Of a DNA stretch of 48,598 bases, positions 3,045 through 10,421 are shown piece by piece. Location: contig NZ_JALJRB010000033.1 in NCBI RefSeq assembly GCF_022968795.1, positions 1-48,598 of the forward strand, read 5' to 3'. The position numbers and the translations under genes were made by a program. Origin of the DNA: Desulfatitalea alkaliphila (GTDB taxonomy: Bacteria > Desulfobacterota > Desulfobacteria > Desulfobacterales > Desulfosarcinaceae). Numbering within the stretch: the stretch's first letter is position 1; each line of letters starts with the position of its first letter. The notes under the pieces were generated by a model that searched no databases, had not been told where the DNA came from, and saw nothing but the letters and a program-made list of their open reading frames with translations.

Positions 3045-4697
3045 TCAGACCTCGATGATGAACGGCATGATCAAGGGCCTGCGGCCGATGGTGAAGAAAA
3101 AATATTGGCGCAACGCGGATTGGACACGGCTGCGAATGATCTCCAGGCGGTTGGGCACCTCCGGCGGCACATCCTCAACAATCTCCAGAACCACGCACTG
3201 GGCATCGTCGAGCAGATGTCCGGTCTCCGTTTCGAAGACAAACCCCTTGGAAACCAGATCGGGGCCGTAGATCACCACCCCGGTCTCCTCGTCGAAGGCC
3301 ATGTTGATCACCACCATGCCCTCCTCGGAAAGCAAGCGCCGCTCCTTGAGCACGCTGCGGCCCACATCCCCCACGCCTTTGCCGTCGATCAGCAAGCGGC
3401 CCGTCATGATACTGCCGGTGACGGCGGCCGCCTCGCAGGGGCCGAAGGTGACCATGTCGCCGTTTTGCACCAAAAGAATGTTCTCCTTGGCGATCCCCTC
3501 CTGCTCGGCCAGCCGGGCATGCTGCACCAGATGCCGATACTCGCCGTGAATGGGGATGAAATAGCGCGGCCGGGTGAGCCGAATCATCATCTTGAGCTCT
3601 TCCTGAAACGCATGGCCCGACACGTGGATGCGGGCGATCTTTTCATAAACCACCGTGGCGCCGCAACGGTACAGATCGTTGATGATGTTGGTGATGGCCC
3701 GCTCGTTGCCCGGAATGAACTTGGACGAAAGAATCACCGTGTCCTCGGGCATGATCTTGATCTGGCGGTGGGTCCCGGCGGCCATGCGCGCCAGTGCCGA
3801 CATGGGCTCTCCCTGGCTGCCGGTGGTGATGATGATCACCTCGTCCTCGGGAAATTGCCGGACCTGGTCCACCTCGATCTGCATCCCCTCGGGAATGCGC
3901 AGATAGCCCAACGATTGGGCGATCTGCACCGACACCTCGATGCTGCGGCCGTTGAACAACACCTTGCGCCCGGTGGCGACGGCGATCTCGACGATCTGCT
4001 GGATACGCCCCACGTTGGAGGCGAACAGGGCGATGATGATGCGCCCCGTGCAACGCTGGCATATGCCGGCCAACACCTCGGCGACTTCGCAATCCGAAAC
4101 GGTGTGTCCGGCGTTTTCCACATTGGTGGAGTCCGACAGCAGGGCCAACACCCCTTGCTCGCCGCAGCGGGCGAAGCGACTCACATCGGTGGCCATGCCG
4201 TCGACACAGGTGTGGCTGAATTTGAAATCACCGGTATGCACGATGGTGCCGTACGGGGTGCCGATGGCGATCCCCACGCCGTCGACGACGCTGTGGTTGA
4301 CGCGGATGAACTCCAGGGCAAAGGGGCCGATCTTGAGGGTTTCGCCGGGGAGCACGGTGTGCAGCGCCGTATGCCCCATCAGGTCGTGCTCTTCCAGCTT
4401 GTGCCGCACCAGCCCCAGGGTGAAGGGGGCCCCGAATACAGGGGCATGCACCTCCCGCAGCAGATAGGGCAAAGCGCCGATGTGGTCTTCATGAGCATGG
4501 GTCAACACGATGCCGGCCAACTTTTTAACATTCTGCTTCAAATAGCTCATGTCGGGGATGACGTAATCCACCCCCAACATGTAATCCTCGGGGAACATGA
4601 GCCCGACATCGATCACAAACAGGGTCTCATGGCACTCCAGGACCATCATGTTCAACCCGATTTCGCCCAGCCCCCCCAGAGGAATCAGTTTAACCAC
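3045..4697 (-). CDS. rnj: Ribonuclease J (metallo-beta-lactamase/beta-CASP)
   Basis: Zinc-dependent endo- and 5'-3' exoribonuclease for mRNA turnover and RNA maturation. The metal-binding signature THAHEDHIG is at residues 66-74, followed by the beta-CASP region and the C-terminal HxSGH segment (HVSGHAFQEEL). The 550-residue length matches the family. I start it at GTG 4697 (VVKLIPLGGLGEIG), since family members begin a few residues before PLGGLGEIG; this start overlaps the plsC stop by 8 bp, suggesting translational coupling. Longer in-frame starts would run into plsC. RNase J is widespread in Firmicutes, Actinobacteria and Desulfobacterota-like lineages and absent from E. coli. Confidence 0.93.
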   Translation of the reverse strand: MVKLIPLGGLGEIGLNMMVLECHETLFVIDVGLMFPEDYMLGVDYVIPDMSYLKQNVKKLAGIVLTHAHEDHIGALPYLLREVHAPVFGAPFTLGLVRHKLEEHDLMGHTALHTVLPGETLKIGPFALEFIRVNHSVVDGVGIAIGTPYGTIVHTGDFKFSHTCVDGMATDVSRFARCGEQGVLALLSDSTNVENAGHTVSDCEVAEVLAGICQRCTGRIIIALFASNVGRIQQIVEIAVATGRKVLFNGRSIEVSVQIAQSLGYLRIPEGMQIEVDQVRQFPEDEVIIITTGSQGEPMSALARMAAGTHRQIKIMPEDTVILSSKFIPGNERAITNIINDLYRCGATVVYEKIARIHVSGHAFQEELKMMIRLTRPRYFIPIHGEYRHLVQHARLAEQEGIAKENILLVQNGDMVTFGPCEAAAVTGSIMTGRLLIDGKGVGDVGRSVLKERRLLSEEGMVVINMAFDEETGVVIYGPDLVSKGFVFETETGHLLDDAQCVVLEIVEDVPPEVPNRLEIIRSRVQSALRQYFFFTIGRRPLIMPFIIEV

Positions 4698-6415: not shown

Positions 6416-7414
6416 TTATGTTTCAACCAAACCGATCAGGACGTTGGGAGGTTGGACAGTGTCCGGGCTGACATCTTGCGCCGCCGCCGGTTGCTTGCAC
6501 AGCCGGGTGAGCAAGGTTGCCGGCGTGCACGCTTGCAAACGCCGCAGGGTCAGCCGGCCCGAACCGGCCCCGACCGCCGCCCCAGCGGCCTTTTCGTCCT
6601 CATCCGGCGCGAAATCGCCGCCGGCGGCCAACCGGTGCAGATGTTGCTGCAGGGCGGTTGCCCCGGCATCCGTCGCCGAACCGTCCGCGCCGCCACCAAG
6701 GGGCTCGTTGCCCACCGGCTGCGCCTCGGGCAGCATCTCCAGCAGATGTTGCCAGACCGCCATGCTGTCGGTCACATAAAGATGCCCCAGCGCATTGCTG
6801 CCCAAAGCCAATCGGGCCCACGCCTGCACACGCCGTTCGGTCATGTGGGCACCGAGGTCCGCCATGGCCGATTGGCCTGCTGCGCCTTGCGATAGGGCAT
6901 CGGCGGATGACGAATCGTCCGGCGCTTCGCCCAGAAGCCGCTCCAGACGGTCCTCCATGGCGCGTACCGCACCCATGTCGTTCTGCAGGGCATCCTGCTG
7001 CTCATCGAAGCGATGGGCCAGGCAGAGGAAAAGGGCGGCCTGCAAGAGGGGATCGGCCGCCTCGTCGGCTTTGGCCGCCGCCGCCCGCTGCAGACGGGTG
7101 CGGATCCGATTGGGACTCTCTTCCAAGGCATCGGCCGCCCGGGCGGCTTGGAAATGGTAAATACCCGCCAACGGTTCGCCGTCGTTCCGGTGCAACGCGG
7201 CCCAATCGGCAAACCCCTTGAGGGACTGCGTTAGTTGCCGTTCATCGATCCGGGGGCAGGGTTGCAAATGCAATCGCTCCTGCGCCGCGGCCTGGTGCAT
7301 GGCCGACGGCACCAGTGACGCCAAGGGCTGCAACACGGTGAGGCGGCCCAATCCATCGGCCAGCCGTTGGATCCGTTCCCCATGCAGATGGGTGAACGGC
7401 ATGAAATGGATCAT
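6416..7414 (-). CDS. Hypothetical protein downstream of the CysK/CysRS-like fusion
   Basis: The product is 332 residues and I recognise no family. It is Ala/Leu/Gln-rich and largely helical; it starts MIHFMPFTHLHGERIQ, has a central stretch on cell-surface-neutral helices (LLQAALFLCLAHRFDEQQDAL) and an Ala/Gly-rich low-complexity segment before a Leu/Thr-rich tail. There is no signal peptide, membrane helix or obvious catalytic motif. The start is ATG 7414 with AAAGGAA about 9 bases upstream; the stop of the upstream fusion gene lies in that same gap, so the two are probably coupled. A short hairpin (GGATTG/CAATCC, 6379-6394) follows its stop and may be a weak terminator. The tight link to the fusion gene suggests a shared role, which is inference only. 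Confidence 0.65.
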   Translation of the reverse strand: MIHFMPFTHLHGERIQRLADGLGRLTVLQPLASLVPSAMHQAAAQERLHLQPCPRIDERQLTQSLKGFADWAALHRNDGEPLAGIYHFQAARAADALEESPNRIRTRLQRAAAAKADEAADPLLQAALFLCLAHRFDEQQDALQNDMGAVRAMEDRLERLLGEAPDDSSSADALSQGAAGQSAMADLGAHMTERRVQAWARLALGSNALGHLYVTDSMAVWQHLLEMLPEAQPVGNEPLGGGADGSATDAGATALQQHLHRLAAGGDFAPDEDEKAAGAAVGAGSGRLTLRRLQACTPATLLTRLCKQPAAAQDVSPDTVQPPNVLIGLVET

Positions 7415-7418
7415 TGCT

Positions 7419-9716
7419 TCATTCCTTTGCGGATTCAACCTTGCCGTCCCGCACCGTCACGCCCATCTGTTCCAGCTGCTCCCGGATCCGGTCGGCCAGG
7501 GCCCAGTCGCGATTACGGCGCGCTTCGGCCCGCTGGCGCAGCAGCTCCTGCACCGCGGGGTCGTCATAGGCCGGCGGAAAATCGAAAACACCCAATACGT
7601 CGTCGACGTTGCGCAGGGCGGCGGTCACCTGCGGCACCTGCTCGGGCGCCAGCTGCTGGCGGGCCAGGAGCCGGTTGAGTTGTTTGATCACCTTGAAGAT
7701 CACCGCCAGGGCGGCGGAGATGTTCAAGTCGTCGTCCATGGCCACATGGAAACCGTTTTTCAAGTCGTAGAGCAGTTGGTCCAGCTCTTTGAAAGGCACC
7801 CCCCGAACCACCTGGCGCAGCGTGGCCACACAGCTGTCCAGGCGTTGAAGGGTCCGCCGGGCGTATTGCAGCCGCTCCAGGGAATAGATCACCGGCTTGG
7901 GGTAATGGCTGGAGAGCAGCCAGAAACGGATCTCGCGACCGGTCCACCCCCGGGCCAGCAGCGACCGAACGGTCCCGCCGCCACCTTCGGCCTCTTCCGC
8001 AGCGGCACCGTTGACCACCACCCGATCACAGTGGAGCCAGAACCGGGCCAGGGGTTTCTTGTTGAGAGCGCCGGCGATGGCGATCTCGTTTTCGTGCTGG
8101 GGAAAAAGCAGCTCACGGCCGGCGATGTGGATGTCACAACTTTCACCCAGGTATTTGAGCGCCAGGGTGGCGCACTGCAGCGGCCAGGAAGGCTGTACGT
8201 TGCCCCACGGGGTTTTGGTGTAAAGCCCCTTTTTCAACTCGGCCAGCTTGACCCGCTTGAGCAGCGTGAAATCGCGCGGGTTGTCTTTCTCGTAATCGTC
8301 CAGGTCCACCGTGGCCCCCAGCCGGATCTTGTTCAGGTCGATGCCCGAGAGCCGGCCGTAATCCTCGAACCGGGAGATGTCGAAATAAATGGAGCGCAGC
8401 TTTTCGTAGGCGTACCCCTTGGCGACCAACTGCTGCACCACCTGCACCATGTCGTCCACATGGTCGCTGGAGCGCGGGTAGTGGGTCGCTTTGCGGATGC
8501 CCAGGGCGTCGCGATCCGCCTCCAGGGCGGCGATGTTGCGGGCGGCGAAGTCGGCAGGCATCATGCCAGCGGCCGCCGCCGCCTCAAACGTCTTCTGATC
8601 CAGGTCGGTGATGTTCACCACATGCTGCACCGCAAAACCGCGATAGGTCAGGTAGCGGGCCACCATGTCGGCGAACACCAGGCGCCGGGCATCCGTCGTC
8701 GCCATGGGACCCTTGGCGGTGGGCCCGGTGGTGTAGAGGGTCACCCGATCGGCCCGCTGGGGGGCGAAAATCTCCTTGCTGCGGGTGCGCGTATTGAACA
8801 GGGCGCAGCCCACCTTCTCCCGCTCCACGAACAGCGGCGTGGAGAGGTAGCGCTCGCCGCTGTCGGGCAGAACCGCCACCACCACGCCTTGCTCCATGGC
8901 GGCGGCCTGTCGCAGCGCCACGGCCATGGCCGCGCCGCTGCTCATGCCCACGAAAAGCCCCTCTTCGCGGGCCAGACGGCGGGCCGTTTCAAAGGCCTCC
9001 TCGTCGTCCACGTTGACCTTCTCGCCCAGCCGATCCTTTTCGAAGATCTCCGGGGTGTAGGACTCTTTCAAATTCTTGAGTCCCTGGATCTTGTGCCCCA
9101 GATAAGGCTCCACCCCGATGATGCGCACGCCCGGAGCGATCTCCGCGAACCGGCGCGCCAACCCCATCAGGGTGCCGGAGGTGCCCAAAGTGGCCACAAT
9201 GGCGCTCACCCGCCCTTCGGTCTGCTCCCAGATCTCGTTGGCCGTGCCGTGGTAATGGGCCTGCCAGTTGGCCGCATTGTTGTACTGGTCGGTGAGGTAA
9301 TAGCTCTCGGGATGTTCCCGCACCAGCCGGTAGGCCTCCTCGATGGCCCCGTCGGTGCCCAGGCGACCCGGCGTCAAGTGGATTTCGGCCCCCCGGGCGC
9401 GCAGGATCTTCTGGCGCTCCAGGCTGGCCGTCTCGGACATGGTGAGCAGCAGTTTGTACCCTTTGATGGCGCACACCATGGCCAGGCCGATGCCGGTGTT
9501 GCCGCTGGTGGCCTCCACCACCGTCTTGTCGGGGGTCAGTTCGCCGGAGCGTTCGGCGGCCTCGATCATGGAGAGGGCCGCCCGGTCCTTGATGGAGCCG
9601 CCGGGATTCAAATATTCCAACTTGGCCAGAACCGTCACCCGGGGATTGGGATTCATGCGCCGGATGGTCACCAGCGGCGTGCAGCCGATCAAATCAAGCA
9701 ATGACAAAGCGTTCAT
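7419..9716 (-). CDS. Cysteine synthase fused to a degenerate cysteinyl-tRNA synthetase-like domain
   Basis: A 765-residue two-domain protein. Residues 1-300 are an O-acetylserine sulfhydrylase (CysK, PLP fold II): PLP lysine K43 in NPGGSIKDR, phosphate/substrate loop TSGNTG at 70-75, GTSGT at 178-182, SSGAA near 259. Residues about 304-765 align with CysRS (LFNTRTRSK, NITDLDQK, HENEIA, the DALR/helical tail), but key residues are gone: the HIGH position reads ATTD (339-342), the first zinc Cys is T330, the zinc His is Q540 (FPQHENE), and KMSKS is replaced by AAAEEAEGGG (571-580). C515 and E544, the other two zinc ligands, remain. The CysRS part is therefore unlikely to charge tRNA. The start is the second ATG (MNALSL), preceded by AGGAT. 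It sits between tmk and an unknown gene, in the surE operon. Confidence 0.9.
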   Translation of the reverse strand: MNALSLLDLIGCTPLVTIRRMNPNPRVTVLAKLEYLNPGGSIKDRAALSMIEAAERSGELTPDKTVVEATSGNTGIGLAMVCAIKGYKLLLTMSETASLERQKILRARGAEIHLTPGRLGTDGAIEEAYRLVREHPESYYLTDQYNNAANWQAHYHGTANEIWEQTEGRVSAIVATLGTSGTLMGLARRFAEIAPGVRIIGVEPYLGHKIQGLKNLKESYTPEIFEKDRLGEKVNVDDEEAFETARRLAREEGLFVGMSSGAAMAVALRQAAAMEQGVVVAVLPDSGERYLSTPLFVEREKVGCALFNTRTRSKEIFAPQRADRVTLYTTGPTAKGPMATTDARRLVFADMVARYLTYRGFAVQHVVNITDLDQKTFEAAAAAGMMPADFAARNIAALEADRDALGIRKATHYPRSSDHVDDMVQVVQQLVAKGYAYEKLRSIYFDISRFEDYGRLSGIDLNKIRLGATVDLDDYEKDNPRDFTLLKRVKLAELKKGLYTKTPWGNVQPSWPLQCATLALKYLGESCDIHIAGRELLFPQHENEIAIAGALNKKPLARFWLHCDRVVVNGAAAEEAEGGGGTVRSLLARGWTGREIRFWLLSSHYPKPVIYSLERLQYARRTLQRLDSCVATLRQVVRGVPFKELDQLLYDLKNGFHVAMDDDLNISAALAVIFKVIKQLNRLLARQQLAPEQVPQVTAALRNVDDVLGVFDFPPAYDDPAVQELLRQRAEARRNRDWALADRIREQLEQMGVTVRDGKVESAKE

Positions 9717-9785
9717 GGTTATCCTGGACATCCCTGGCGCCCCGCCGACCCAACGCCGGGCGCCGATTCAACACGCTGCAAGCAC

Positions 9786-10421
9786 CTATGCCGCCAGCAG
9801 CGACGCCAGCAGCGCCTCCACCTCGCGAGTCACCGCGGCCACATCGCGGCCGGCATCGATCACCCGGTAGCGTTGGGGTTCCCGGGCGGCCAACTCAAGG
9901 TACCCGGCCCGCACCCGTTGATGAAAAGCCGCCTTCTCCTGTTCGAAGCGGGTCTCCGCGTCGGTGCGTCCGCCGTTGTGCACCTGCGCCCAGGCCCGGG
10001 CCAAACCGACGGCGGGATCCAGATCGAAGAGCAAGGTGGCATCGGGTCGCAAATCGTCGCAGGTCAGGCGATGCAACTCCCGGATCGTGCGCCGATCCAC
10101 TCCCCGGGCATAGCCTTGATACACCAGGGTGGCGTCAAAGAACCGGTCGCACAACACCACCCGGCCGGCCGCCAGATGGGGCTGGATCACCGTGCGAATG
10201 TGCTGCACCCGATCCGCCACGTAGAGCAGCAATTCCGCCACCGGATCCAGCCCGCGGTTTTCCGGGTCGAGCAGGATGGCCCGTATGCGGCTGCCGATGG
10301 CCGTGCCGCCCGGCTCCCGCGTGGTGACGCACTCATAGCCGCTGCCTTCCAAATAAGCAACGATGTTTTGGAGCTGGGTGGTTTTCCCGGCCCCTTCGAT
10401 CCCTTCAAGGGTAATGAACAT
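9786..10421 (-). CDS. tmk: Thymidylate kinase
   Basis: Phosphorylates dTMP to dTDP for DNA synthesis. The 211-residue product shows the P-loop GIEGAGKTT at residues 7-15, the TREPGGT substrate loop, and the DRF motif (CDRFFDATLVYQG) that binds the nucleotide. Length and motif order are typical. It lies 65 bases after the YhaM-type gene and 69 bases before the CysK fusion, in the same direction. In many genomes tmk is next to holB; here holB lies 10 kb away on the other strand. Confidence 0.95.
   Translation of the reverse strand: MFITLEGIEGAGKTTQLQNIVAYLEGSGYECVTTREPGGTAIGSRIRAILLDPENRGLDPVAELLLYVADRVQHIRTVIQPHLAAGRVVLCDRFFDATLVYQGYARGVDRRTIRELHRLTCDDLRPDATLLFDLDPAVGLARAWAQVHNGGRTDAETRFEQEKAAFHQRVRAGYLELAAREPQRYRVIDAGRDVAAVTREVEALLASLLAA

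Follow-up and report, generated by a model that had tools for sequence, protein, structure and literature searches.

The mycothiol cysteine ligase MshC, a paralogue of cysteinyl-tRNA synthetase (CysRS), is not known to have an anticodon domain. A second paralogue, CysRS* of Desulfobacterales, is described in the available part of a review (PMC9437257) as an active synthetase that charges SelC* and is likewise without an anticodon domain. Synthetase relatives also occur as regulators: in HisZ-HisG an inactive synthetase paralogue regulates the enzyme that makes its own amino acid (available parts of PMC9437257 and PMC4335047), and in the HisRS-like domain of Gcn2 a pseudo-synthetase is fused to an enzyme, with uncharged tRNA as the signal (available part of PMC4335047). 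On the side of cysteine synthesis, CysM of M. tuberculosis uses O-phosphoserine, as stated in the accessible portion of PMC12910592.

The window, a 48,598-nucleotide stretch of DNA from Desulfatitalea alkaliphila, encodes a cysteine synthase and a CysRS-like domain in one chain. No fusion of this kind was found described in the literature searched, in which subscription journals are thinly covered, and the available portions of PMC5424206, PMC8762117, PMC2922099 and PMC9437257 do not mention one. The best explanation, to which we give an even chance, is that the protein is an active cysteine synthase independent of O-acetylserine (OAS) with a retired CysRS as a tail that binds tRNA-Cys, and that tRNA-Cys controls the synthase. 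We infer the synthase activity, the O-phosphoserine substrate and the tRNA binding, and propose the control by tRNA charging.

The fusion gene in the window

A preliminary description had reported a CysRS-like tail, fused to CysK, that lacks HIGH, KMSKS and two zinc ligands, and comparison with E. coli CysRS bears this out (Table 1). Its claim that the tail is alignable with CysRS from end to end also holds, through the Pfam domains tRNA-synt_1e, DALR_2 and CysS_C; with domains over the whole tail and an E-value of 4.5e-66, the similarity covers the full length and lies far beyond chance. The lost zinc ligands had been recognised correctly but were numbered T330 and Q540, five lower than T335 and Q545, as counted from Met6, which the starts of homologues make the likelier start. 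At the sites that mark a functional CysRS, the window protein lacks HIGH and KMSKS, has T, C, Q and E in place of the four zinc ligands, and keeps the pocket that reads G34 (RRWD). The tail very probably cannot charge tRNA.

Table 1. Features of the fusion gene and its neighbours, with positions in the window
Feature	Position	Strand	Basis
Fusion gene, 770 aa, cysteine synthase + CysRS-like domain	7419..9731	-	intact ORF, Pfam, NCBIfam
Cysteine synthase domain PALP, residues 13-290, K48 at PLP-lysine motif	8862..9695	-	Pfam, NCBIfam
Linker, residues 302-308	8808..8828	-	model pLDDT <50 for residues 293-307
CysRS catalytic-like domain tRNA-synt_1e, residues 323-625	7857..8765	-	Pfam, E 4.5e-66
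T335 replacing zinc ligand Cys (E. coli C28)	8727..8729	-	alignment
ATTD (344-347) replacing HIGH (E. coli 37-40)	8691..8702	-	alignment
C520, retained zinc ligand (E. coli C209)	8172..8174	-	alignment
Q545 replacing zinc ligand His (E. coli H234)	8097..8099	-	alignment
E549, retained zinc ligand (E. coli E238)	8085..8087	-	alignment
AAEEA (577-581) replacing KMSKS (E. coli 266-270)	7989..8003	-	alignment
DALR_2 helical domain, residues 661-716	7584..7751	-	Pfam
CysS_C anticodon-binding domain, residues 725-764	7440..7559	-	Pfam
G34-reading pocket R734, R738, W743, D747, intact (E. coli R423, R427, W432, D436)	7491..7532	-	alignment
tmk, same strand, 54 bp upstream of fusion, operon context	9786..10421	-	neighbourhood
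Uncharacterised 332-aa gene, directly downstream of fusion	6416..7414	-	neighbourhood

Among the NCBIfam profiles, the window protein exceeds the cut-off of the subfamily cysKM (TIGR01136, 354.6 bits against 344.15) and falls short of the equivalogs cysM (348 of 394.2 bits) and cysK (314.5 of 350.95). The tail scores 308 bits with the CysS equivalog TIGR00435, below its cut-off of 340, and the protein 134.6 of 485.1 bits with the MshC profile TIGR03447. Structure prediction, suggested earlier for the tail, gave an AlphaFold2 model on 25 homologues (pLDDT 84.1, pTM 0.57); in Foldseek its predicted N half resembles OASS/CysM (2bhs, TMt 0.93) and its predicted C half CysRS, including 1u0b with tRNA-Cys (TMt 0.80).

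The commonest neighbours of the fusion are tmk (at least 30 of 157 loci) and the family of the downstream gene (at least 29), both counts being lower bounds because the flanks differ in length; no neighbour common to all 157 loci was found. The downstream gene has no Pfam match, and its family adjoins motif-intact fusions (L138, L140-L143, L161) as well as decayed ones. A search of the window for RNA regulators gave no Rfam family at gathering score.

The nearest relative, from another MAG (L010), is 87% identical; its frame is open too, KMSKS is absent, the zinc residues are likewise TCQE, and the HIGH position reads TVGD. Seven sister loci (L006-L009, L011, L012, L036) are also without KMSKS and the first zinc Cys, and still read HVGD or HVGA at HIGH. 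The losses of KMSKS and of the first zinc Cys are thus common to the clade, the loss of HxG is confined to the window and, partially, to L010, and sequencing error is an unlikely cause of the losses. Selection keeps the fusion, as had been proposed: the dN/dS between the window and L010 is 0.10 in CysK, 0.11 in the catalytic-like part and 0.14 in the C-terminal part. Across 19 close pairs the highest computable dN/dS is 0.445 (L218/L222, C-terminal part; dS is saturated for some pairs), which indicates purifying selection on the tail. In all 19 pairs the C-terminal part is less conserved than either of the other two parts.

Spread and decay of the fusion

The homology search yielded 31 fusion loci, of which 30 are full length, among the best 80 of 165 confirmed stretches. 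They come from MAGs labelled delta- or desulfo-type, except L015 (Methanococcoides) and L029 (only Proteobacteria); since the sequence of L015 resembles the fusions L013, L014 and L021, we infer that it is mis-binned. Both halves in one frame were not found among L037-L085, within the same best 80. One candidate outside the phylum, L070 from Firestonebacteria, is matched over residues 8-464 and was rejected as a 300-aa cysK followed by another enzyme. A match in Acetoanaerobium (H1) covers 97% of the query in two pieces over 2,919 bases, in a region without annotation that may hold a fusion. Profile searches covered the window's phylum and the genomes behind the loci; at least 150 of 395 sampled genomes of the phylum, counted as one row per genome, have a fusion that spans at least 550 of 767 positions.

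Sequence comparisons were based on 157 distinct fusions including the window, after removal of two partial sequences (L034, L232), the window's own duplicate entry (L117) and two sequences identical to L023 and L026 (L116, L129). Some fusions had been flagged with '1 TGA/TAA', raising the idea of selenocysteine; eight were read and show no stop codon within the aligned part, and the flags were therefore taken as terminal stops. Two genomes, G016 (C58, C16) and G019 (C20, C18), have two fusion-sized CysRS-like frames each.

In a tree with 58 separate CysRS a single, fully supported branch sets all the fusions apart, and a single origin is the simplest reading of this sequence comparison; this tree and that of the CysK half were made with FastTree only, and the program warns that long branches meet at the split between fusions and CysRS. 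The losses seen in the window recur among its homologues, in a comparison that had been suggested earlier. HxG is lost in 90 of 157 fusions, K-x-S-[KR] in 117 (a strict count, in which the variants KMSQ and KMSF are scored as lost), and the full zinc set is missing from 73 and kept as CCHE in 84. All three motif sets are retained in 22 fusions and lost in 43, with 92 in between. On the tree of the CysK half this amounts to 18 changes of HxG, 16 of K-x-S-[KR] and 12 of the zinc set, in a parsimony count that does not separate gain from loss. The decay of the catalytic motifs is graded and repeated. Among 59 separate CysRS, 51 keep all motifs and the other eight fail only in K-x-S-[KR].

It had been considered in advance that the fusion might be the only cysS of its genome. 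This is not the case: a separate, complete cysS lies on contig C25 (38614-39555, E 5.7e-96) of a genome that is 99.68% complete. Among the 31 genomes behind the first fusion loci, whose completeness is not given, 27 have a full-length separate CysRS, two have fragments only and two have none. Each of fifty further fusion genomes contains a single fusion and a single separate CysRS (50/50, E 1e-15 or better). Because these hold few decayed fusions, 38 more genomes were examined, nearly all with fully decayed ones, and a separate full-size CysRS is present in 35; the exceptions are G166 (a 419-aa frame only), G071 (no more than a partial match, within a frame of 318 aa) and G036 (none, in a genome 79% complete).

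The window's own separate CysRS reads KMAKS. This protein (L001 1099-2496, minus strand) and those of seven other genomes (L106-L112) have a low family score, 322 bits for the window against about 440-475 in most others, and are without K-x-S-[KR]; they may have replaced the ancestral enzyme. CysRS-like frames of about 415-427 aa (L105; G004:C2:35812-36702; G166:C145; G304:C6; G402:C1:2100834; G307:C34) may be of the known CysRS* type or truncated copies, and L105 is without the anticodon domain.

The synthase half and its probable substrate

K48, K219, N220, S264 and D290 are found in 157 of 157 fusions. We take K48 to be the PLP lysine and K219 to stand at the place of a CysM arginine, and the GLKN motif of the fusion resembles that of CysM. 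The gene content of 46 fusion genomes bears on the substrate. The fusion is the only cysKM protein in 23 of them (E 1e-60 or better), and precisely these 23 lack any match to cysE with an E-value of 1e-20 or better. Each of the remaining 23 has a match to cysE; one of these matches is above the curated cut-off and the rest score 157-171 bits of 210.65. In 22 of these genomes the match and the second cysK share a contig and are no more than 3 kb apart (for example cysE 3595-4089 and cysK 4169-5062 on C26 of G000; the exception is G326), which supports the name cysE. Since the fusion is the sole cysKM protein where cysE is absent, its synthase would be independent of OAS, as judged by genome content only, and O-phosphoserine would be the likeliest substrate.

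Three second CysKs of cysE-bearing genomes (L295, L278, L280) have a GPHKIQGIGAGFVP loop and no GLK[NH][LM]; the fusion reads GLKN(L/M). In a comparison of unfused enzymes that left out L294 and L296, the motif GL[KR][NH][LM] occurs in eight enzymes of cysE-less relatives, which share GLK[NH][LM] with the fusion, and in four unfused homologues, three archaeal and one from Aquicultor. Of 40 control genomes without a fusion, 28 have a cysE match and 12 have none; 11 of the 12 have exactly one cysKM protein and G382 has none. Absence of cysE therefore does not require the fusion, and because OAS-independent relatives occur unfused, the synthase as such can do without the tail. The comparisons suggest that OAS-independent cysteine synthesis is common among sulfate reducers and related bacteria.

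The anticodon domain and the possible role of the tail

In the E. coli complex, G34 is contacted by hydrogen bonds from Arg427 and Asp436, stacking of Trp432 and Arg423 via water, as given in the available part of PMC12684709, citing Hauenstein 2004. This pocket (R423, R/K427, an aromatic W/F/Y at 432, and D436, in E. coli numbering) is complete in every one of the 157 fusions, among them the 43 without HxG, K-x-S-[KR] and the full zinc set. Pfam detects CysS_C in 25 of 25 members of alignment A1 and in six of six strongly decayed fusions. In the 43 fully decayed fusions, conservation reaches at least 98% in six of six C-terminal columns, chosen as those conserved in separate CysRS, compared with 19 of 80 others, active-site columns being left out (Fisher p 3.8e-4). 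A Mann-Whitney comparison of active-site and C-terminal columns was set aside as circular because the decayed group is defined by active-site loss, and the Fisher test is relied on. The extreme tails of L033 and L245, without HIGH, KMSKS and three zinc ligands, have an intact anticodon pocket.

Because a base-specific anticodon pocket survives dead catalysis across a large family, the tail would bind tRNA-Cys, and the earlier suggestion that it holds tRNA-Cys gains strong support from this conservation. Three further residues, R350, R493 and G502, are invariant in all 157 fusions and occur in none of 59 separate CysRS; R350 comes after HIGH and R493 is within DFTLLKR. They possibly form a new phosphate- or RNA-binding site.

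With the synthase in the same chain as a tail that binds tRNA-Cys, the simplest uses are sensing of uncharged tRNA-Cys and placement near translation, and the sequences suggest that tRNA may directly control or position cysteine synthesis. In the proposed mechanism the protein would be active as a cysteine synthase independently of OAS, most likely as an O-phosphoserine sulfhydrylase, and its C-terminal half would stem from one ancient fusion with CysRS. The tail would have lost aminoacylation, completely in the lineage of the window, and would still bind tRNA-Cys via its anticodon domain. Free uncharged tRNA-Cys, abundant at cysteine shortage, would bind the tail and either switch the synthase on or place it beside the translation machinery. 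The specific form, an enzyme gated by the charging state of the tRNA of its own amino acid with the retired CysRS as reader of uncharged tRNA-Cys, is drawn by analogy and is tentative, possible rather than probable. Since 22 of the 157 fusions still look able to charge tRNA, the function of the tail may differ between lineages.

Alternatively, the tail might bind tRNA-Cys solely to hold the synthase close to CysRS and ribosomes for local use of cysteine, with no allostery, and in motif-intact lineages the same protein would both make and charge cysteine. The universally kept anticodon pocket agrees with such a tether, as do the 22 fusions that retain HxG, K-x-S-[KR] and all four zinc ligands. 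HxG is also commoner where the fusion is the sole synthase (20/23 against 12/23, p 0.023 with kinship ignored), with no such difference for K-x-S-[KR] (11 against 7) or zinc (12 against 16, p 0.37 each). However, the aminoacylation motifs change many times while the fusion persists, 18 times for HxG alone on the CysK-domain tree, so that channelling of a charged product is not the common denominator. We regard this explanation as unlikely.

Ranked below it, and unlikely too, is a tail that is a folding or oligomerisation module with structural anticodon residues and no bound RNA. R750 and D762, invariant in the same domain, may have a structural role, many of the other conserved columns look as if they belong to the core, and the anticodon residues may in part be structural or re-used to contact the synthase domain. 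Against a mere relic, polar residues that contact the base are kept in every fusion within the fastest-evolving part of the protein, and CysRS paralogues that do not read this anticodon are without the domain, as with MshC and, in the available part of PMC9437257, CysRS*.

Sensing or carrying of cysteine at the old active site, one of the functions first suggested, would give feedback on the synthase by the logic of HisZ (precedent in the available part of PMC9437257). CCHE is kept in 84 of the fusions, but with the full zinc set missing in 73 and two of four ligands gone in the window this is not a common function, and as a family-wide explanation it is very improbable. The poorest candidate, and less likely than sensing or placement of tRNA-Cys, is conversion by the synthase of a Ser- or Sep-type aminoacyl group on tail-bound tRNA-Cys, a bacterial analogue of the SepCysS transsulfursome: an OAS-independent synthase and a tRNA-Cys-reading tail do share a chain, and R350 and R493 are fusion-specific in the catalytic-like domain, but SepCysS is above cut-off in 0 of 46 fusion genomes (three weak matches), relatives of the synthase occur unfused, and we know of nothing else here that would load Sep or Ser on tRNA-Cys.

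Returning to control or placement by tRNA-Cys, confirmed binding would mean that a single polypeptide links the supply of an amino acid to the tRNA for it. If the gating is true, uncharged tRNA-Cys decides how fast or where cysteine is made across much of the phylum, and the fusion would be the metabolic equivalent of Gcn2. The fusions, whose tails range from intact to dead, also offer naturally occurring intermediate stages in the loss of catalysis by a synthetase, and the window stands near the end of this series.

Compared with known systems, the tail shares with CysS (TIGR00435) the full-length fold, the domains and the intact anticodon pocket, and differs in the window by the lost HIGH, KMSKS and two zinc ligands and by its position behind a cysteine synthase. 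M. tuberculosis CysM and other O-phosphoserine sulfhydrylases are of the same OAS-independent type but have no CysRS tail. The SepRS/SepCysS pathway likewise couples cysteine synthesis to tRNA-Cys, with enzymes unrelated to the fusion. By analogy, Gcn2 and HisZ may serve as precedents for parts of the proposed mechanism: HisZ is a separate subunit that senses histidine, whereas the cysteine fusion is covalent and keeps an anticodon reader, and Gcn2 is a eukaryotic kinase, whereas the fusion is a bacterial metabolic enzyme with tRNA control proposed by analogy. MshC is likewise a CysRS paralogue recruited outside translation, but it keeps cysteine activation, and the fusion tail does the opposite by keeping the anticodon domain. 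CysRS*, a CysRS paralogue in the same bacterial group, also shows the reverse pattern of kept parts. The known CysRS paralogues keep amino-acid activation and lack the RNA-reading end, and in the fusion it is the opposite part that survives.
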